A model generated the notes under the pieces. It had not been told where the DNA came from. It did no database searches and saw nothing but the letters and a program-made list of their open reading frames with translations. Below are positions 3,529-12,842 of a stretch of DNA of 18,904 bases, piece after piece (position 1 is the stretch's first letter; the number at the start of each line of letters is the position of its first letter). Source of the stretch: Phycisphaerales bacterium UBA4658 (GTDB lineage: Bacteria; Planctomycetota; Phycisphaerae; Phycisphaerales; UBA1924); the NCBI GenBank assembly GCA_002405485.1, contig DHLW01000143.1, positions 5,091 to 23,994 of the forward strand. Direction: 5' to 3'. Position numbers and translations under genes: made by a program.

Positions 3529-4770
3529 TCAGGCGAGCCGAGATTCGGAGTCGCGGCGCTCGATTGCCGACCCTCTGCGGACGATGCGGCGCTTGAGTTC
3601 CAGAACCGTGATGTCGGTCCGCAGCTTGGCGATATCCATGCCCAGACGCTGGCCGAGGTCGTCGATGGTCCGAGGAGCGTCCAGGGCCTCCACAATCGCG
3701 CGCTGTGCCGGCGTCAATCCAGCATCACGCGGGCCGTCGCCGGGCGGATGAGCACGGGCCGGCGCGCTCTCCCGTGACGGCGCGACCTCGCCTTGGGCTA
3801 CGGAGTCCACCGAGTCGGGCATCGTCGGGGCGTATCGAACCTGGTGCGACCCGGCAAAGAGATGTCGGGCCGGGGTTTCCAACGCGTGCAGGATGTCGTC
3901 GGGATGGGTGACGAGCTGGGCTCCCCCGGACTTGAGCAGCTCAAGGGACCCCTCGGCATGTGCAGAATCGACCCGTGCCGGAAGGGCAAAGGCCTCTCGC
4001 CCGTGTTCCTCGACTGCGGTCCGGACGGTGATCAAGGCCCCGGATTTCTTGCCGGCCTCGACCACCAGAACGCCCAGGGACAGCCCCGAGATGATGCGAT
4101 TGCGTGCCGGGAAGTTCTCAGCGTTCGGCGGGGTGCGCAGGGGAAGCTCGGAGATCACGCATCCGTGGCCAGCGGAGATCCGGTCGAAGAGGTCGCGGTT
4201 CTCCGGGGGGTAGCACTCAGCCAGACCACACCCGAGGACGGCGACGGTCCGGCCCTTGGCTCGCAGCGCGCCGCGATGGGCCGCGGTGTCCACGCCGCGT
4301 GCCCCGCCCGAGACGATGGTGAGTCCGGCCTGCGCCAGGTGGAGGCCGAACCGCTCGGCCTGCTCGATGGCGTAATGCGAGCAGGAGCGCGAGCCGACGA
4401 TCGCGATGGGATATCGATCGGCGGCGGCGTGCTGCAGCTCACCACGGACGTACAGGAGCACTGGGGCGTTCGGGATGGAGGCCAGCAGTGGCGGGAACGC
4501 CGGGGAGCCCAGGCCCAGAAGGTCCACACCGAGGGTGTGGGCAAGAGCGAGCTCGTCGTCCGCGAGCCGTTCGGAGAGTGCCATGCTCTGGGCGATCTGC
4601 CGCGCTCGATCGTCGCCGACGCCGCGGATCCGCGTGAGCGCGCCCGGCGTGGCGGAGAGGACCGCCGCCGGCGACCCGAAGGTCTCCAGAGCGCGGCGGA
4701 TGAGCACGGGCCCGAACCCGGAGGTCAGTGTGAGTCGGAGCAGATCGCGCACCGCGGAAACATCGCCCAT
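3529..4770 (-). CDS. dprA: DNA-processing protein A, transformation-linked ssDNA/RecA loader
   Basis: 413 residues. An N-terminal helix-hairpin-helix-like region (residues ~15-60, LTRIRGVGDDRARQIA) is followed by the Rossmann-like core, with IAIVGSRSCSHY (~122-133), SGGARGVDTAAH (154-165), GCGL..CYPPEN and FPARNRIISGLS (220-231). A C-terminal DprA winged helix covers residues ~352-400. DprA binds incoming single-stranded DNA and loads RecA during natural transformation. The ATG at 4770 is preferred to an upstream TTG at 4797 because a promoter -10 box ends 6 nt before it. A low-complexity linker (~300-350) separates core and winged helix. The neighbouring lexA and DinB-fold genes are on the same strand but not in one obvious operon. 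Confidence 0.95.
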   Translation of the reverse strand: MGDVSAVRDLLRLTLTSGFGPVLIRRALETFGSPAAVLSATPGALTRIRGVGDDRARQIAQSMALSERLADDELALAHTLGVDLLGLGSPAFPPLLASIPNAPVLLYVRGELQHAAADRYPIAIVGSRSCSHYAIEQAERFGLHLAQAGLTIVSGGARGVDTAAHRGALRAKGRTVAVLGCGLAECYPPENRDLFDRISAGHGCVISELPLRTPPNAENFPARNRIISGLSLGVLVVEAGKKSGALITVRTAVEEHGREAFALPARVDSAHAEGSLELLKSGGAQLVTHPDDILHALETPARHLFAGSHQVRYAPTMPDSVDSVAQGEVAPSRESAPARAHPPGDGPRDAGLTPAQRAIVEALDAPRTIDDLGQRLGMDIAKLRTDITVLELKRRIVRRGSAIERRDSESRLA

Positions 4771-4776
4771 GCATCG

Positions 4777-4805
4777 AGAGTACCGAACGGTATCCAAAAA
4801 TGCAA
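4777..4805 (-). promoter_or_regulatory. Leaderless promoter of dprA
   Basis: Minus strand: TTGCAT (4800-4805), exactly 17 nt, TACTCT (4777-4782), then 6 nt to the ATG at 4770. Transcription would begin at or next to the A of ATG, giving a leaderless mRNA. This also explains the lack of a Shine-Dalgarno. Two G residues precede the -10 box, as in several other promoters of this window. Confidence 0.6.
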
Positions 4806-4892
4806 GGACAAAAGCGTCCCGAGTACCGGGACGCAGGCAGAGCCGCGACGGAGCGGGCGATGCAGCGGTGAGAGGGATCGGGGTGACGGAGC

Positions 4893-5390
4893 TCAGCCGG
4901 GGATGCGGATGCGAATCATGTAGTCGAGCTCAGGCCACTGTGCGCCGAGGCGTCGGAGGGCGTTGCAGGCCTGGGCCTGGTGATGCTTGGAGTGCATGAC
5001 GCCCTGCATGAGCATCTCGCCCAGCGGGGCCTTGAAGGGGTTGCCCTTGCTGTCGCGATAGGGTTGCATTCGCGCAAGATCAGCGTCAAAGACCCGGGCG
5101 AGATAGGCGTCGCGTTCGCGAGCGTTTGCCGCAAAGGCGACCTGCAGGGCGGCGACCGGAGTCGGGTCGCTCTCGCTGGGCCACTTTGTCTCGTGTTCGC
5201 CTCGCCATCGGCGGAGCCAGACATACTCGCCATTGAAGGTGTGGATGAGAATCCTGCGGAGCGTCCCGGGGCCGATGTCCAGGGGTCGATCAAGCTGCTC
5301 ATCAGAGAGCGGGAGCGCGGCCTCGAGCAGTCGGGAGTTGCTCCAGTCGGTGTATTCGAGAAGGGTTCGGATGGTGGCAAGATCGATCAT
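4893..5390 (-). CDS. DinB/YfiT-fold metal-dependent protein
   Basis: 165 residues, the normal length for the DinB-like four-helix-bundle family. It starts MIDLATIRTLLEYTDWSNSRLLEA, the usual first helix. The metal ligands are visible as His50 (RILIHTFNGEYVWLRRW) and His133/His137 (GVMHSKHHQAQACNALRRLG), the family's H...HxxxH pattern. Family members include thiol transferases using bacillithiol or mycothiol and many of unknown function. The name comes from B. subtilis DinB, a DNA-damage-inducible protein, and does not show SOS control here. The C terminus is YMIRIRIPG. It lies 122 bp upstream of dprA on the same strand, with the dprA promoter in between, so they are probably separate units. 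Confidence 0.85.
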   Translation of the reverse strand: MIDLATIRTLLEYTDWSNSRLLEAALPLSDEQLDRPLDIGPGTLRRILIHTFNGEYVWLRRWRGEHETKWPSESDPTPVAALQVAFAANARERDAYLARVFDADLARMQPYRDSKGNPFKAPLGEMLMQGVMHSKHHQAQACNALRRLGAQWPELDYMIRIRIPG

Positions 5391-5536: not shown

Positions 5537-6556
5537 GTGTCCATGGAACGAGTGTTGTGTTTGTCGGTGGCGTGCTGGGCACTTTCGGCGATGAGCGCAC
5601 TTGGGCAGGTGTGCAGCCCAGGAACCTTCAGCTCGACGGGATCGGCTCCGTGTGTGCCGTGCTCGCCCGGAACATTCAGCAGTGTCGCGGGCGCGACGGC
5701 GTGCCAGCCCTGCCCTCTTGGGACGTTCTCCAGTCTGCCCGGTCAGACTTCGTGCGTGGCGTGCCCTGCTGGGCAGTTCGCCAACGTGATCGGATCGACG
5801 TCGTGCCAGGCCTGCCCGGCGGGAACGTTTGGCGACACGACCGGGGCCATCTCGTGCACGCCGTGCCCCGCGGGGTCGTTCTCATCGACGACGGGCAACA
5901 CGAGCTGCCTGCCGTGCGCTGCGGGGTCGTTCTCCGCAACGACAGGCAACACAAGCTGCCAGCCGTGCGTGCCCGGAACATTCACCAGCCTGATCGGGTC
6001 GGCAGCGTGCCAGCCGTGCCCTGTAGGGACATTCAACAACGTCTCGGGGAGCGTCAGTTGCCAGGCGTGTCCGGTTGGACAGTTCAGCAACGTCGTGGGC
6101 GCACAGGCATGCATGCCCTGCCCCGAGGGCACGTTTGCATCGACAACCGGGAGCGGGACGTGCCAGGACTGTCCACCGGGAAGGACCTCGCTGCCGGGAT
6201 CGCCGGAGTGCGTGCTGTGTCCGCCGGGGTTTGCGTGTGCCGGCGCTGGTCGAGCGCCGGTGATCTGCTCGCCCGGGACATATGCCCCCGCGGGGTCGAG
6301 CGCGTGCATTCCGGCGCCGATCGGGACTTTCGTCGCGGCCGCGGGATCGGCGGCGCCGACGGCGTGTCCGGTGGGAACGTTCTCGCCGGTGGTTGGGGCG
6401 ACGGCGTGCGCGGCATGTCCGCCGAACACCAACTGCACGCCCACGAGTGCGACGCCGAACTGCCCCGCGTGCCCGGCGGACTTCAACAACTCCGGCATGC
6501 TTGAGATCAACGACGTGTTCACCTTCCTGAACGCGTGGTTTGCGGGCTGCCCGTGA
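5537..6556 (+). CDS. Secreted Cys-rich repeat protein with dockerin-like tail
   Basis: 339 residues. A signal peptide (to about residue 23, ...ALSAMSALGQ) precedes about sixteen tandem units of ~17 residues with the pattern P-x-G-T/S-F-x-x-x-x-G-x-x-x-C-x-x-C (residues ~25-310). They resemble the GCC2/GCC3 (ephrin-receptor-like) family. Each unit carries about two Cys, so a rod-like disulfide-bonded ectodomain is likely. The C terminus (residues ~312-339, CPADFNNSGMLEIND then VFTFLNAWFAGCP) is an EF-hand/dockerin-like tail of the GC type found in Phycisphaerae surface proteins. The GTG at 5537 has GGAG 7 nt upstream; the in-frame ATG at 5543 would have a 13-nt spacer. Function unknown; adhesion or a cell-surface structure is plausible. 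Confidence 0.88.
   Translation: MSMERVLCLSVACWALSAMSALGQVCSPGTFSSTGSAPCVPCSPGTFSSVAGATACQPCPLGTFSSLPGQTSCVACPAGQFANVIGSTSCQACPAGTFGDTTGAISCTPCPAGSFSSTTGNTSCLPCAAGSFSATTGNTSCQPCVPGTFTSLIGSAACQPCPVGTFNNVSGSVSCQACPVGQFSNVVGAQACMPCPEGTFASTTGSGTCQDCPPGRTSLPGSPECVLCPPGFACAGAGRAPVICSPGTYAPAGSSACIPAPIGTFVAAAGSAAPTACPVGTFSPVVGATACAACPPNTNCTPTSATPNCPACPADFNNSGMLEINDVFTFLNAWFAGCP
5610..6465 (+). repeat. 51-bp tandem coding repeats
   Basis: About sixteen direct units of roughly 51 bp encode the 17-residue Cys-rich motif. Units 2-11 are the most regular. Units 12-17 drift in length and lose Cys residues, for example the one reading PAPIGTFVAAAGSAAPTAC. Nucleotide identity is moderate, so the array is old or under diversifying drift rather than freshly expanded. 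Confidence 0.8.
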
Positions 6557-7571: not shown

Positions 7572-7850
7572 TCACGATGAGGGAGCCGGGGCGGCGGATG
7601 CGGCGATCGCCTCGGCGGCACGCTGCGCCAGGTGCTTTTGAATCTGGATCTTCATGATCGTGGTGTTCATCACGCGGAACCGGGTCTCGCCGGTCAGAAG
7701 CATGAGCTGAATGTACGGCTCACACATGCCGCACCCCGAGGCGCATCGGGTCCTGTCCCGGAGCTGCTCGAAGGACAACCGCTCGGCATCTGCTCGGCGC
7801 TTGAGCTCATCGAAGGAGAGGTTGTGGCAGACGCATCGCGTGACAGGCAT
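7572..7850 (-). CDS. BFD-like [2Fe-2S]-binding protein
   Basis: 92 residues. The start at 7850 is chosen because GAGG lies 5 nt upstream; a longer frame begins at 7916. MPVTRCVCHNLSFDELK gives the C-x-C pair (Cys6, Cys8), and RTRCASGCGMCEPYI the C-x2-C pair (Cys40, Cys43) plus an extra Cys36. This is the pattern of the bacterioferritin-associated ferredoxin/NirB-type [2Fe-2S] helix-turn-helix domain. E. coli Bfd passes electrons to bacterioferritin to release iron; no bacterioferritin is present here. After the domain, a ~35-residue tail ends in an Ala/Pro-rich stretch. Convergent with comB, with only 19 bp between the stops. Confidence 0.85.
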   Translation of the reverse strand: MPVTRCVCHNLSFDELKRRADAERLSFEQLRDRTRCASGCGMCEPYIQLMLLTGETRFRVMNTTIMKIQIQKHLAQRAAEAIAASAAPAPSS

Positions 7851-7892
7851 GATTGCCTCGGGTGGGCGGGCCACGGGCTCGCCCCACGGGTC

Positions 7893-7921
7893 ATTATGCA
7901 AGCATGCATCGGTCACAACAA
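7893..7921 (-). promoter_or_regulatory. Promoter of the BFD-like gene with inverted repeat
   Basis: Minus strand: TTGTTG (7916-7921), 17 nt, CATAAT (7893-7898). The inverted repeat ATGCA-N4-TGCAT (7896-7909) overlaps the -10 box and spacer, where an iron or redox regulator could bind. It is not a clear match to the Fur consensus. The start point would be near 7886, giving a ~36-nt leader that contains the GAGG site. Confidence 0.6.
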
Positions 7922-8054: not shown

Positions 8055-8079
8055 CGCACATGCCGGGCATCATCGTGCG
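8055..8079 (-). terminator. Possible terminator hairpin at the end of the surface operon
   Basis: An imperfect hairpin straddles the last codons and stop of the pseudopilin-like gene: outer arms CGCAC/GTGCG, inner arms ATGCC/GGCAT, with a 4-nt bulge. On the minus strand it is followed by GGTTTCTTCG, a short T-rich run but not a classical poly-T. Weak evidence. Confidence 0.25.
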
Positions 8080-8987
8080 CCGAAGTCGCCGTTGTCATCA
8101 GTTTCACCGGACCAACCGATCCCGAGCTCTGAAGGGTTTGTGGGGAAGAACCCGCTGGACCACGTGAAGGTCATGCGGATGGGTGCGACATGGCCGTCGA
8201 GAAACCCAGCGGTCGCCGACCCCGGACGGGCGATGGCGCTCTGTATTCGAGCCGGCGCGGCGTGGCGAAAGTGGATGCTCGGGTCGGCTCGCTGCGATGG
8301 ATTGTCTGGCCAGTAGCGGGGTTCGAGAAAGGAATACTCGATGAGACCCATCGTGTCCGGAGTTCCGGCCGCGAATGCCGAATCGGCAAAGGCAAGGGTC
8401 TCGGCGGGGGTTGCGAAGCGGGAGCGCTGGGCGCCCAGCCGATCGGTGATCAGACGGTGGATGGGCCGACCGGAGGCGGGGTGCACGCCGGCCGGGGCGC
8501 GGTCGACCCCCAGGTAGGCGTTGTTGTAGCCATAGCCCCCCGCGGAGCGCTCGAAGCCCGCCGAGGCACGCCGAAGCCGCTCGGCGACTGGCGCGAAGGT
8601 GGGGCATGACCGCACGGAGCGGCTGGCCACGTCGGACTCGGAGGCGTCGAGATAGGGGCTGAGCGTTCCGCCCTGCGGCTCGAACGCCGCGCTCGCCGAG
8701 GCCCGAGCGCCGTGCCAGCGCGTGCGATTGGCGAGCATGTCGGGTGCGCCCGGCGGGAGCCGATCGCGATGGTCGGAGGCGTAGCTCTCGATCGCGAGCA
8801 GCAGTTGACGGACGTTGCTGGAGCAGACGCCCGCCCGTGCAGATTCGCGGGCCGATCCGAGCGATGGGAGCAGCAGGGCGACCAGCACGGCGAGGATCGC
8901 GATGCAGACCAGCAGCTCCACGAGCGTGAAGGCGGCGCGGTGCGCCCGTCCGGTCCGCGAGGATGCTCCAATGCGTGCGGCGCTCAT
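8070..8987 (-). CDS. Pseudopilin-like protein with prepilin cleavage motif
   Basis: 305 residues. A basic leader is followed by AAFTLVELLVCIAILAVL (from residue 18): a type IV prepilin/type II secretion pseudopilin signal with cleavage before Phe20, Glu at +5 of the mature protein, and a hydrophobic helix. Ala rather than Gly precedes the cut. Next comes the SxNVRQLLLAIESYASDH region typical of planctomycete pseudopilin-like proteins. Near the end are FRHAAP and GFLDGHVAPI, resembling the H-x9-DG terminal motif with a longer spacing. The ATG at 8987 overlaps the upstream stop (ATGA), so it is translationally coupled as the third gene of the riboswitch operon. Function unknown; in this context it may help assemble or anchor the surface proteins. 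Confidence 0.85.
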   Translation of the reverse strand: MSAARIGASSRTGRAHRAAFTLVELLVCIAILAVLVALLLPSLGSARESARAGVCSSNVRQLLLAIESYASDHRDRLPPGAPDMLANRTRWHGARASASAAFEPQGGTLSPYLDASESDVASRSVRSCPTFAPVAERLRRASAGFERSAGGYGYNNAYLGVDRAPAGVHPASGRPIHRLITDRLGAQRSRFATPAETLAFADSAFAAGTPDTMGLIEYSFLEPRYWPDNPSQRADPSIHFRHAAPARIQSAIARPGSATAGFLDGHVAPIRMTFTWSSGFFPTNPSELGIGWSGETDDNGDFGAR

Positions 8988-10087
8988 GGCGTGGAGAACC
9001 AATCGTTGAGAAACGCAAACACGTCCGCAATGTCGGTCGCCCCGGAAGCGTTGTAGTCGGCCCCGCCGTTCTCGCCGGCACCTGCAAACCACAGGTTCAG
9101 AAAGGCGAAGATGTCCGTCACATCCACCGTGCCACTGCGATCGACATCGGGGACGTAGTTCGGCGTGACGTCGGAGACGGCGGAGACCTCCGTGGAGACC
9201 TCGCCGAGGATCGGATGCACCGCGTCCACTCCCGTGGAGATGCGAACGAAGTCGATACGGTCGAGCCCGGCGGACACGCCGGTGAGCGGATCGACGGCCC
9301 AGGAGAGGGCGATGGACGAGCCGCCACCCGACCCGGGCGAAATGCCCGGAGTGAAGGGATCATCCGGAACCGTGTAGAAGCGGGCAGGATCGGCCAGCGG
9401 GTCGTCGACGACGTCGTCGGCGTCCAGATCGCCAAGCCTGACCGCCGGGGCCAGGTCTGCGTATCCCCAGATCGATTCCGCGGGGCCTGCGTTGATCTGG
9501 ACGGGGCTAGCCGAGAACGGCGGATTCGGGAGCGCAAAGCCGCTGGTCGTCCACGACCCGGAGCGGCCCGGCGGCACCCAGAGTGCGTTGAGCGACACGC
9601 TCTCCCACAGCCGCACCTGGCGGGCCAAGGGCCCTGCCAGGTGCGAACCGGGAATGAGGAACCACGGATCGTCGGCCTGACCGTTCCCGTTGTCGTCGCG
9701 GCTGACCTCGATGACACCGGGTTCGCAGTGCCTGCGGAGCGGATCGCTCGCGACGAAGAACGCATTGCCAAAGACGATGAAGTCCATGCCCCGGGGGTTG
9801 AACGGGTTGCGGTAGATGGGGCGGCTGAAGCCGAGCGTGATGGACCCGCCAAACGACCCGAGAGAGACGACCTTGGCGTTGTCGGGGGTGGCCAATCCCC
9901 CCGCGCCCGCGGGCGGACCAAGGGCGCTTGCCGGGTTGTTGAACAGCGCGTTCTGGACGAACTGACCCGGAGCCGCGTCGAACGCGACGACGCGGGTGGC
10001 AAACGGGTTTGCCGGATCGGCCATGGTCGAAGCGGCGGCGGCGAGCGTGCCGCTCGCACAGGCGAAGACGCGTGTACGCCGGCTCAT
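8984..10087 (-). CDS. Secreted surface protein with two EF-hand/dockerin-like motifs
   Basis: 367 residues. An N-terminal secretion signal (MSRRTRVFACASGTLAAAAS, cut near residue 23) is followed by a large domain: VVSLGSFGGSITLGF (~73-87), NPRGMDFIVFGNAFF (~96-110), EPGVIEVSRDDNGNGQADDPW (~120-141, with a calcium-loop-like D-D-N-G-N-G) and IPGS (~144). I recall the same string of motifs (GG.I..GF, DF.V.GNAF, EPG.V.V..D.NGNG..DD.WY.L.GS) in Bacteroidetes cell-surface proteins of cobalamin loci; this needs a search. The C terminus (~313-367) has two EF-hand/dockerin repeats, VDRSGTVDVTDIFAFLNLWF and YNASGATDIADVFAFLNDWF. The start and stop each overlap a neighbour by ATGA. Likely exported; ligand unknown, cobalamin suspected from the riboswitch. 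Confidence 0.85.
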   Translation of the reverse strand: MSRRTRVFACASGTLAAAASTMADPANPFATRVVAFDAAPGQFVQNALFNNPASALGPPAGAGGLATPDNAKVVSLGSFGGSITLGFSRPIYRNPFNPRGMDFIVFGNAFFVASDPLRRHCEPGVIEVSRDDNGNGQADDPWFLIPGSHLAGPLARQVRLWESVSLNALWVPPGRSGSWTTSGFALPNPPFSASPVQINAGPAESIWGYADLAPAVRLGDLDADDVVDDPLADPARFYTVPDDPFTPGISPGSGGGSSIALSWAVDPLTGVSAGLDRIDFVRISTGVDAVHPILGEVSTEVSAVSDVTPNYVPDVDRSGTVDVTDIFAFLNLWFAGAGENGGADYNASGATDIADVFAFLNDWFSTP

Positions 10088-11142
10088 CTTCGCCTCCGAG
10101 CGCTGAAGACGCCGAGGGCAACGAGCAGGCCGGCCGACGCCGGGGACGGAATGGCAAACCGAAGCACGGTGGCGGATCCGAACTGCTGGACGAGAATCTC
10201 GGACGCCTGTGGCGAGAAACTGGCGGAGTAGAACCCGGCGGGGTCGAGCCCCGGCAGGGACCGAGTCAGACCGCTGGCCGGATCGATGAGCCCCACGCCG
10301 CCGAAGCCCGCGACGATGAGATTCCCGAACCCATCGAAGTCGAGCGTCGCGGCGGTGTTGAGCCGACCGACCGTCTGTCCGGAGGTAAAGGGGACCGGCG
10401 CCGCGGCGGAGTTCAGAGCGGCAAGATCGAAACCGCGAATCTCGCCATCACGAGCGCCGGCGAGATCAAACCCGATGGCCGTGTACACGATGCCCGAACC
10501 GATGGCGACGCCGCCGGATCCGTCGCCGATCTGGTTGACCACTTCCGTCGACGAACCGGTGCTCACCGAGGCGCGGTAGAGCTTGGTGGGCTGTCCGAAG
10601 GAGGGGGAGCCGGAGACGTAGAGCGTGTCCTCGTCGATCCAATCGGCCTGGTAGTTGAACACGGTGACCGATGAGGTGACTGTTGGTGGCGAGAGACTCA
10701 CGCTGCCGAGCGGGATGATCGTCATGACGCCGCCCACGCCGTTGTCGCCGATGGCAAGCCGGGATCCGCTCGGGCTGAGGCGGGCGAATCCGGCGCCGAA
10801 GCTGGGAACGACTCCCGCGGGAAGCTGGCCGATCGGCGTGAACGCGGACCCGGCGGGGCTGTCCTGACGCAGAATCTGGCCGGTGGCGGAGACGCCGACG
10901 AGTCGCCCGTCGGGAAGGGCGTCATAGACGAAGCTGGCCGACGGAACGGTAAATGTGCCGACGCCGACGTACTCCGGAATGCCGCCCGGCGCGGCACCGG
11001 CGCTGAGCACCAGGGCGGCCACGGCGACCAGCGCGGACCCGCGCCCGCCCTGGCCGCGGCGGGCAGGAGCGGTGGGAGCGACGGGGCGGCTTGAGATGGC
11101 GTGAACGGACGAGCGGACAGGCGAGCGGGCGAACAAACGCAT
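10084..11142 (-). CDS. Beta-propeller-like secreted protein with PEP-CTERM-like anchor
   Basis: 352 residues. A long basic N-terminal region precedes a hydrophobic segment (SALVAVAALVLSAGAAPG, ~35-52), read as a signal sequence. The body has repeated strand-turn blocks (LPDGRLVGVSATGQI, LSPSGSRLAIGDNG, DEDTLYVSGSP, FDGFGNLIVAGFGG, SFSPQASEILVQQFG) as in beta-propeller/YncE-like proteins. It ends with IPSPASAGLLVALGVFSARRRR split as a Pro-Ser motif, a hydrophobic helix and four Arg, a PEP-CTERM-type signal handled by an exosortase. The start at 11142 has CGGAGG 10 nt upstream; a longer frame to 11199 lacks one. First gene after the cobalamin riboswitch and coupled by ATGA to the next. Surface display is likely; cobalamin binding is a hypothesis. 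Confidence 0.82.
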   Translation of the reverse strand: MRLFARSPVRSSVHAISSRPVAPTAPARRGQGGRGSALVAVAALVLSAGAAPGGIPEYVGVGTFTVPSASFVYDALPDGRLVGVSATGQILRQDSPAGSAFTPIGQLPAGVVPSFGAGFARLSPSGSRLAIGDNGVGGVMTIIPLGSVSLSPPTVTSSVTVFNYQADWIDEDTLYVSGSPSFGQPTKLYRASVSTGSSTEVVNQIGDGSGGVAIGSGIVYTAIGFDLAGARDGEIRGFDLAALNSAAAPVPFTSGQTVGRLNTAATLDFDGFGNLIVAGFGGVGLIDPASGLTRSLPGLDPAGFYSASFSPQASEILVQQFGSATVLRFAIPSPASAGLLVALGVFSARRRR

Positions 11143-11205
11143 GGGGAACAACCTCCGACAGGCCGCGGTGTCGCGCGCGGCGAAACACGAACCGCCCACG
11201 CGTGG

Positions 11206-11218
11206 GTCTCACGATGAG
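11206..11218 (-). promoter_or_regulatory. Leader element shared with lexA (copy 2)
   Basis: Minus strand CTCATCGTGAGAC, identical to 2360-2372. It is followed by the perfect palindrome CCCACGCGTGGG (11195-11206) and then the GGAGG site. It sits between the riboswitch aptamer and the start codon, so here it could be part of the expression platform. A chance match cannot be excluded. Confidence 0.25.
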
Positions 11219-11317
11219 AATGCCGGGGTGGATGCGGCGCGGGACGAGTGCGCGGCAGCGCACCGTGTGCCCGAGCAGGAATCCGCGCCGGCGCCCCAGA
11301 ATCGCGAGGGCGGCAGA

Positions 11318-11565
11318 CACACGCTCGAGGCAGGTCTTCCGGCTCAGGCCCCAGAGACGCCGCGGACTCGGCCTTCCCATTCGGACGACGGGTGTCGGCC
11401 GAACAGTGGCACGCATGGAGTCCACGGACAAGGGCCATTACGGCGGCGCGTCCGCGGTGGAATTGATCCGAGCCCGCCCATCGGCACAGCCAGATCGCAC
11501 CACACTTCCCTTTTCAATCGCCGCGCCAGGAGTTCTCATCGCTGGAGCGGTGATCACCAAGAGCG
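11318..11565 (-). ncRNA. Cobalamin (adenosylcobalamin) riboswitch
   Basis: The minus strand carries the conserved boxes in the correct order: AAAAGGGAAG (11505-11514), GTGGTGCGA (~11496-11504, with ATTCCACC at ~11455-11462 closing P4), GGACGCGCCGCCGTAATGG (11435-11453, compare E. coli btuB GACGCGCAGCGGTAAGG), GCCACTG (11404-11410, the B12 box), TGGGAAGGC (11371-11379) and AGCCGGAAGACCTGCC (11329-11344). P1 may pair GCUCUUGG with CCUCGAGC. An extra ~25-nt insertion lies in the P4 loop. B12 binding should lower expression of the three surface genes downstream. No poly-U terminator follows, so control is more likely at translation. Ends are approximate. Confidence 0.88.
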
Positions 11566-11570
11566 GGAGC

Positions 11571-11598
11571 AGCGTACCACGAACGATTCGGGTGTCAA
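11571..11598 (-). promoter_or_regulatory. Promoter of the riboswitch surface operon
   Basis: Minus strand: perfect TTGACA (11593-11598), 16 nt, TACGCT (11571-11576), preceded by GG like other -10 boxes here. The start point falls near 11564, exactly where the aptamer begins, and lies about 100 bp beyond the stop of the upstream C45 gene. The palindrome GGTGATCACC (11549-11558) is at the very start of the transcript. The 11143-11690 interval is thus promoter, riboswitch and leader; no gene was seen in it. Confidence 0.7.
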
Positions 11599-11690: not shown

Positions 11691-12842
11691 TCAGTCCCAT
11701 CGGCATCGGATCTCGCGCCATGTGCCGTTGCTGGCCGCGGGGCAGGCGCCGGAGGCGAAGTGGATCACCCGGTGTGCCGGATCGGCCACGGCGGAGTAGA
11801 TGGTGCGGAGGTCGGCGGACATGGCGGTGTCGCGCATCTCGACCCACTCGTCGGCGAGGATCTCGGCGAGATCGTGCGGACACTCTTCTGGATGGGCGGA
11901 CTCGAGAATGTCCAGCACACGAGCGCAGCGCGTGACCGTGGACCCGTGGCGCCGGACCCGCGCGGGATCCGTGAGCGCGTCATGCGGGTGCTTGTGTCTG
12001 CAGTGGTTGGTCGCCACCAGAGCCGGGCGGCCGCCGATGGACCATGGATCCACTCTCTTGAAGCTCGAGCGAGAGCACTCGTAGATGGCGGCGTGCCCCG
12101 TGCGCGAGCACGCGGCAAAGAGGATCACCCCGCGATCTCGATCCGTGCGCTGGATGAAACGCTCCAGATCCTCGAGCGAAGCGCAGGTCTCCAACGCCTC
12201 ACGCATCCAGAAGAGCCAACTGATGCAGCTCACGCCCGCTCGCGGCTCATCCCGGGCGAGCAGGGTGTGCATGTGCATCCAGAGTCCCTCGGCGTTCATG
12301 CCGGTGTCGGCGTCGATGTCGCCCATGATGCCCACGCAGACGCAGGGAATGCGGTGCGGCACGGCGTGGAAGACGGCGGCGGTGCCGCGAGAGAGCGTCT
12401 GCACATACCAGTCACAGTTGCGCGCCGTCCAGGGACGACGGTCCTGCCAGACAACCAAGCCGGTGCACATCGGGCCGCGCTCCCCGATGAGCTGCGCCGG
12501 CGACTGCAACTCAGGAGGACCGATCGCCGCGTGATGGTCGCCGCCGGGTCTGGGTGCGGCGATGTCGGCGTACAGCCACTCCCGCACCGCAGCCTCGGTC
12601 ACCCCGGCGCCCGAGGCCATCGCGGCGATCTGGAGCTGATACCGCTCCGGCAACCGCGACGCCCACGCCGCCGCACTCAGAGTGAGATGCTCCGGATCGG
12701 TCCGATTGATCCGCAGGAACGGGTGCACATACGCGTGGCGTGCCGCGGGTGCAAGCAGCTCCCGGCACGCTCGGCCATAGGCATGCCCGGCGTCCTGGAT
12801 CGCTCCGGGTAAGCGCACTTCGTGGAAGGACGTGCAGAGCAT
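11691..12842 (-). CDS. C45-family Ntn hydrolase / acyltransferase-like protein
   Basis: 383 residues. The likely self-processing site is Met125-Cys126 in ERGPMCTGLVVWQD, followed by PWTARNCDWY (residues ~138-146). This is the C-(S/T)...(G/A)-R-N-x-D-W pattern of the C45 peptidase / isopenicillin N acyltransferase-like family. Such proteins cut before the Cys and then use it as nucleophile on an amide. GIMGDIDADTGMNAEGLWMHMHTLL and ALVATNHCRHK fit later motifs of the family. The substrate is unknown; bacterial members act on acylated amines or peptides. No signal peptide is seen. The start lies 9 nt after the stop of the upstream hypothetical gene, so they are co-transcribed. Confidence 0.82.
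   Translation of the reverse strand: MLCTSFHEVRLPGAIQDAGHAYGRACRELLAPAARHAYVHPFLRINRTDPEHLTLSAAAWASRLPERYQLQIAAMASGAGVTEAAVREWLYADIAAPRPGGDHHAAIGPPELQSPAQLIGERGPMCTGLVVWQDRRPWTARNCDWYVQTLSRGTAAVFHAVPHRIPCVCVGIMGDIDADTGMNAEGLWMHMHTLLARDEPRAGVSCISWLFWMREALETCASLEDLERFIQRTDRDRGVILFAACSRTGHAAIYECSRSSFKRVDPWSIGGRPALVATNHCRHKHPHDALTDPARVRRHGSTVTRCARVLDILESAHPEECPHDLAEILADEWVEMRDTAMSADLRTIYSAVADPAHRVIHFASGACPAASNGTWREIRCRWD

Follow-up and report, generated by a model that had tools for sequence, protein, structure and literature searches.

A cobalamin-riboswitch operon of Planctomycetes encoding a BtuH-like protein and an operon-specific prepilin

An 18,904-nucleotide stretch of the genome of Phycisphaerales bacterium UBA4658 (contig DHLW01000143.1, positions 5,091 to 23,994; hereafter the window) carries a cobalamin riboswitch followed by three overlapping genes, A, B and C, which very probably form a corrinoid-capture operon that is expressed when the cell runs short of B12. 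Gene B is related in sequence to the BtuH/H-domain family of B12-binding proteins, and gene C is a prepilin specific to this operon rather than merely one among many. A B-type gene stands behind a cobalamin riboswitch (RF00174) in many of the class genomes and also in other phyla. The cobalamin riboswitch, the BtuH domain, DUF4465 and the prepilin are parts already known; their combination in a widespread BtuH-type locus, whose prepilin is operon-specific and whose hosts within the window's family mostly lack TonB receptors, appeared in none of the literature searched. The locus bears on how B12, which is about twice the size of what ordinary porins pass, might cross a diderm outer membrane without BtuB. 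Because the gene set is small, comprising a B12 riboswitch, a known capture fold and a dedicated prepilin, this question, and that of the pili-like fibres raised by Boedeker et al., could be tested with a single labelled small molecule.

Riboswitch, BtuH-like protein and prepilin

The aptamer matches the RF00174 covariance model along its entire length (1-189/189, E 1.4e-14), which confirms the riboswitch proposed in a first-pass annotation of this DNA, and it is the single match in the source assembly (3.9 Mb, 203 contigs, 79% complete). Genes A, B and C follow it in that order on the same strand (Table 1). Both junctions, A/B and B/C, read ATGA, the overlap described earlier, and the ATG of gene A is preceded by GGAGG. 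The TTGACA-N16-TACGCT promoter of the first-pass annotation is doubtful: both hexamers are present (11598-11593 and 11576-11571), but the second agrees with TATAAT at three of six positions and was not listed by a consensus scan. It also runs into the beginning of the aptamer match, so a transcript started from these hexamers would miss some of the closing stem on its 5′ side.

Profile comparison of gene B with BtuH/H-domain structures gave E values of 6.7e-36 and 9e-29, and the predicted fold of its domain is the same as that of the family. The equivalents of BtuH2 Gln333 and Asn399 are kept in the B family, that of Phe401 is found in 34 of 46 sequences, and the nucleotide-loop contacts are nearly invariant. 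The corresponding domain of BtuH2 and BtuG1 is reported to bind B12 in Bacteroides (PMC8941943), and since gene B resembles these proteins, B12 binding by gene B becomes a homology-based prediction. The first-pass annotation had recognised no known B12 biosynthesis enzyme among the three, missing this kinship with BtuH, and had treated B12 binding by the proteins as inference; gene B now stands higher than that, and for actual binding by A, B and C the earlier caution holds. The dockerin-like motifs that it described are borne out by the C-terminal dockerin-type domain of gene B. No canonical lipobox was seen in gene B by eye. Residues 95-132 also match NF033170 (LIC_13355 family lipoprotein) below threshold (E 5.9e-6), and a BtuH-like domain may thus occur in that family too.

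Gene C exceeds the cut-offs for the N-methylation motif (PF07963, 29.6 versus 21.2; TIGR02532, 22.7 versus 16.3) and for DUF1559 (PF07596, 31.5 versus 23.3 bits), in agreement with its earlier labelling as pseudopilin-like. Across the 19 genomes of our family set, the best match to C is near full-length and adjoins gene B in all 19, with an E value of 4.6e-202 in its own genome and of 1.8e-87 to 2.3e-57 in the 18 others, while the next-best match across the set reaches E 6.4e-22. Each genome holds 18-54 matches to C; the remaining ones mostly cover the N-terminal third, and a few extend to residue 270.

The structure predicted for gene A is a beta-propeller with a helix at its C-terminal end (pLDDT 89), and its fold matches are generic propellers, the best being six-bladed designs. 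The propeller half of its earlier description as a PEP-CTERM beta-propeller-like protein is thus retained and the other half is not: no library match to PEP-CTERM was found in A itself, nor at E <= 0.01 in its relatives at L007, L055 and L065, and the A-slot protein of L064 scores 20.2, just under the cut-off of 20.7. We set aside an identification of gene A as BtuG, which is a seven-bladed propeller; sequence support is lacking, no BtuG entry appears among the 50 fold matches listed for A or in a second fold listing, and the A2 profile reaches no better than E 0.0064 against YncE. Because BtuG1 joins a propeller to an H-domain, our guess, by analogy, is that genes A and B together are a two-gene counterpart of BtuG1.

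Table 1 Features of the operon and its surroundings (positions in the window).
Feature	Position	Strand	Evidence
Cobalamin riboswitch aptamer (RF00174)	11312..11576	-	cmscan 66 bits, cut-off 31.5
Gene A, six-bladed-like beta-propeller protein ending in a helix and an RRRR tail	10084..11142	-	
Gene B, BtuH-like, with a dockerin at its C terminus	8984..10087	-	8blw_B E 7.8e-22, 7biz_A E 7.6e-17; model pLDDT 92
BtuH-like domain of gene B, residues 25-310	9158..10015	-	
Dockerin-type domain of gene B, residues 316-364	8996..9142	-	NF041540, 30.2 versus cut-off 29 bits
Gene C, prepilin, operon-specific subfamily	8070..8987	-	scores above cut-off for PF07963 and PF07596
Possible fourth gene, BFD-like [2Fe-2S] protein	7572..7916	-	PF04324, 29.3 versus 26 bits
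Promoter-like hexamers, doubtful	11571..11598	-	second hexamer overlaps aptamer; absent from consensus scan

Recurrence and variation of the locus

RF00174 is present in 364 of 397 genomes of the class, mostly as a single copy. Our class survey comprised, among the matches listed, 56 strong matches to gene B (E below 1e-20), 61 weak ones and 25 dockerin-only controls, second segments of already counted genes being excluded (G314, G359, G172, G107, G317, G252, G329 and G297). In 54 of 56 genomes a clear homologue of B follows RF00174 on its strand at a distance of 1.1-2.1 kb, and weaker homologues, which match the first half of the domain, lie 67-2216 bp downstream in 57 of 61. Together, 111 of 117 B-type matches stand behind RF00174, as against none of the 25 that match in the dockerin region only. 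Six B matches are without a nearby riboswitch: two lie 0.9 and 1.2 kb from the upstream contig end (G367 and G313), one starts at contig base 194 (G382), one has its riboswitch on a different contig (G039), and for two none was found (G177 and G302).

The first-pass annotation had asked whether homologues recur beside RF00174, and the named loci answer in the same sense as the class genomes. Among 20 such loci, RF00174 lies upstream in all 13 with a BtuH-like match and in none of the seven with a dockerin-only match. Three assemblies occur in both surveys (L004/G216, L006/G171 and L009/G331), so the two sets of linkage counts are not independent. The 13 loci include ones labelled Hydrogenedentota and Bacteroides; three further BtuH-like matches behind RF00174 among them (L012, L017 and L021) are labelled Oscillospiraceae, Blastopirellula marina and Armatimonadetes, and the coupling thus extends beyond the class. 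A protein search returned 371 relatives of B; ten of the 120 listed carry an organism name, in each case Phycisphaerales, Phycisphaeraceae, Phycisphaerae or other Planctomycetes/Planctomycetota.

We compared gene content in 31 loci (L002-L012 and 20 hand-picked B-bearing loci, which are not a random sample). A relative of C occurs in 28 of them (27 by direct BLASTP) and a relative of A in 20. At two loci (L005:6844-7980, plus strand; L063:6864-8000, minus strand) a DUF4465 protein fills the A slot behind the riboswitch, with PEP-CTERM over cut-off only in L063. DUF4465 is the family of the B12-binding BtuJ, and eight distant members are reported to bind B12 (PMC13398666). Two others (L066:5961-8715, minus strand; L068:3542-7005, plus strand) hold, behind a riboswitch, a divergent BtuH-like gene, a propeller-type gene and a prepilin gene in that order; in L066 the propeller-type protein is PQQ_2, and the weaker B form is a relative of B by profile comparison (probability 99%). 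In L010 (Hydrogenedentota) the riboswitch is accompanied by B and C alone. At L067 a small PEP-CTERM protein with no other family match (4593-5150, plus strand) is followed by a BtuH-like gene, again behind a riboswitch. A relative of the BFD-like ferredoxin gene that lies 3′ of C in the window is found there in 7 of the 31 loci, and a role for it in corrinoid reduction is conceivable.

Host physiology, proposed route and rival readings

The B12-type methionine synthase activation domain occurs in 18 of the 19 family genomes and CobS in none, so the family looks to consist of B12 users in which cobamide assembly is not completed. The same two of the 19 have TonB plug and barrel domains, absence being judged on drafts that are 92-98% complete, or 79% for the window genome. 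The plug has no match in the latter, and none of the 45 plug matches listed shares a contig with a listed riboswitch match. Secretins are present in all 19 genomes and a strong FecCD permease match in 16, with an ABC ATPase-like gene adjoining FecCD in 8 of 17 fetched loci. Scans of two permeases, an ATPase and a binding protein gave matches to iron, haem and B12 models that all stayed under the cut-off. PF01497 is found in 17 of the 19 at E <= 0.001 and over cut-off in 13; we set it aside as a BtuF candidate, its common form having no obvious signal peptide by eye. A Peripla_BP_2 (PF01497) gene stands divergent to a secretin/GspE-like pair in 12 of 20 secretin loci (L089-L100, for example L092:4532-5491, minus strand).

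In the route that we propose, the absence of B12 would leave the riboswitch RNA permitting expression of the operon. The A and B proteins would leave the cytoplasm and be retained outside it, B perhaps through its dockerin and A through its C-terminal helix, and the B protein would grip the corrinoid by its nucleotide loop. The C protein may enter a pseudopilus of a type II secretion or type IV pilus-like system and display, export or retrieve the capture proteins. The corrinoid would then pass the inner membrane through a FecCD-type ABC permease and feed MetH. This leaves two roles for C: it may serve to export or anchor A and B, or may itself take part directly in the passage of corrinoid through the secretin. 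The first-pass annotation had read the operon as an outer-surface system made when B12 is scarce; the riboswitch score, the recurrence of homologues beside RF00174 and the resemblance of B to BtuH2 and BtuG1 support this, with the B12 response and the outer-surface location presumed.

Several observations weigh against a capture operon of this kind. No expression platform was recognised 3′ of the aptamer, the folding of 11340-11120 being no better than that of shuffled sequence (z 0.26). The equivalent of the BtuH2 ring contact Trp577 is Trp in none of the 46 sequences, and His476, Tyr510 and Trp511 are without clear equivalents in the B alignment, where they are not confidently aligned. Comparison of A2 with the propeller-H-domain protein of L011 gave a probability of 0.3% (hhalign). 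As noted earlier, the operon contains neither BtuB or another TonB receptor nor an ABC transporter. We set aside FecCD as BtuC, the scanned components not being separable from iron or haem systems. Neither the MetH domain nor a strong FecCD match was found in the window genome at its 79% completeness, and CobS is the sole biosynthesis gene examined. Outside the family, 26 of 37 operon-bearing genomes have a TonB plug, so a distant BtuB is possible there.

Other readings of the locus must be weighed beside these points. Gene B might be a BtuH-fold protein with a changed ligand, such as a corrinoid precursor, another tetrapyrrole or a carbohydrate, and be under B12 control for another reason. 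The near-invariance of the nucleotide-loop contacts, a riboswitch linkage that holds over a wide range and the B12-binding family DUF4465 in the A slot of two loci all argue against this, and we consider it improbable. A chance adjacency of the riboswitch and three surface genes would be favoured by the large number of dockerin and prepilin genes in these genomes; the sharp separation of B-type from dockerin-only matches, both among the class matches listed and among the named loci, and the constant adjacency of C to B leave that reading hardly credible at all.

The function of C is more evenly contested. It could be a pseudopilin only for secreting or anchoring A and B through a type II-like system, with the corrinoid using an unrelated outer-membrane porin or channel. 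The universal secretins of the family agree with this, as do the 20 secretin loci, in which by eye a neighbour is GspE-like in 20, GspF-like in 9 and GspG-like in 8; the many C matches per genome further indicate that prepilins are in general use. One pseudopilin per cargo would nevertheless be unusual among known type II systems, and the operon has no alternative channel linked to it. We give this reading a little less than an even chance. A bolder proposal is that the family takes up B12 without BtuB or any other TonB receptor, by BtuH-like capture outside the cell and a dedicated prepilin that builds or tips a pseudopilus drawing corrinoid through the secretin into the periplasm; this we advance as a speculative and rather unlikely model. 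Corrinoid capture at low B12 is the reading that we favour for the operon as a whole.

Two neighbouring genes deserve mention. Directly 5′ of the riboswitch and on the same strand lies a C45 autoproteolytic acyltransferase/hydrolase gene (11691-12842, minus strand; NF040521, 112 versus 85 bits). The plus-strand gene at 5537-6556 encodes cysteine-rich repeats of the ephrin-receptor/TNFR-like kind (PF07699, E 1.6e-49, eight stretches), an animal-like feature for a planctomycete, and the end of its product matches a dockerin-type model below threshold (19.8 versus 29 bits).

Comparison with known systems

In the open-licence PMC literature we found no paper joining a cobalamin riboswitch with Planctomycetes or with a prepilin, nor, by title and start of abstract among the papers listed, any on a BtuH, a B12 riboswitch or a B12-linked prepilin of planctomycetes, which is not proof of absence. 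The BtuH family has been described in gut Bacteroidetes and three Firmicutes (PMC8941943); the present loci extend it into planctomycetes and other phyla, and the relatives of B gain a candidate function to test. Gene B resembles BtuH2 (BT1956) and the BtuG1 H-domain (BT1490) of Bacteroides thetaiotaomicron (PDB 7biz, 8blw) in sequence, predicted fold, upstream riboswitch and the equivalents of Gln333 and Asn399, and differs from them in its dockerin tail, the lack of a canonical lipobox by eye and ring-contact aromatics that are not conserved. The Bacteroides BtuH-type proteins are described as lipoproteins with PKD or propeller parts, whose loci mostly hold btuB; more than 80% of btuH homologues in a gut panel share an operon with it, a common feature and not a defining one (PMC8941943). 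The operon of gene B, in contrast, has no btuB and includes a prepilin gene.

Gene A is comparable to BtuG, a B12-binding propeller lipoprotein, as a predicted beta-propeller adjoining an H-type domain, the two being fused in BtuG1; unlike BtuG, it has no detectable sequence relation to that family and looks six-bladed. BtuJ1 and BtuJ2 (DUF4465, PF14717) have their counterparts in the A slot of L005 and L063, whereas in the window this slot holds a propeller. Gene C shares the N-methylation motif and hydrophobic N-terminal helix of type II secretion pseudopilins and DUF1559 prepilins, and departs from them in standing behind a B12 riboswitch and being specific to one operon. Boedeker et al. 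propose that the planctomycete periplasm is supplied by way of pili-like fibres and crateriform structures (PMC5394234; also PMC8303584). Passage of corrinoid through a secretin with the help of C would fit this proposal, and such a pilus-type vitamin route would be comparable to the uptake of DNA by competence pili.
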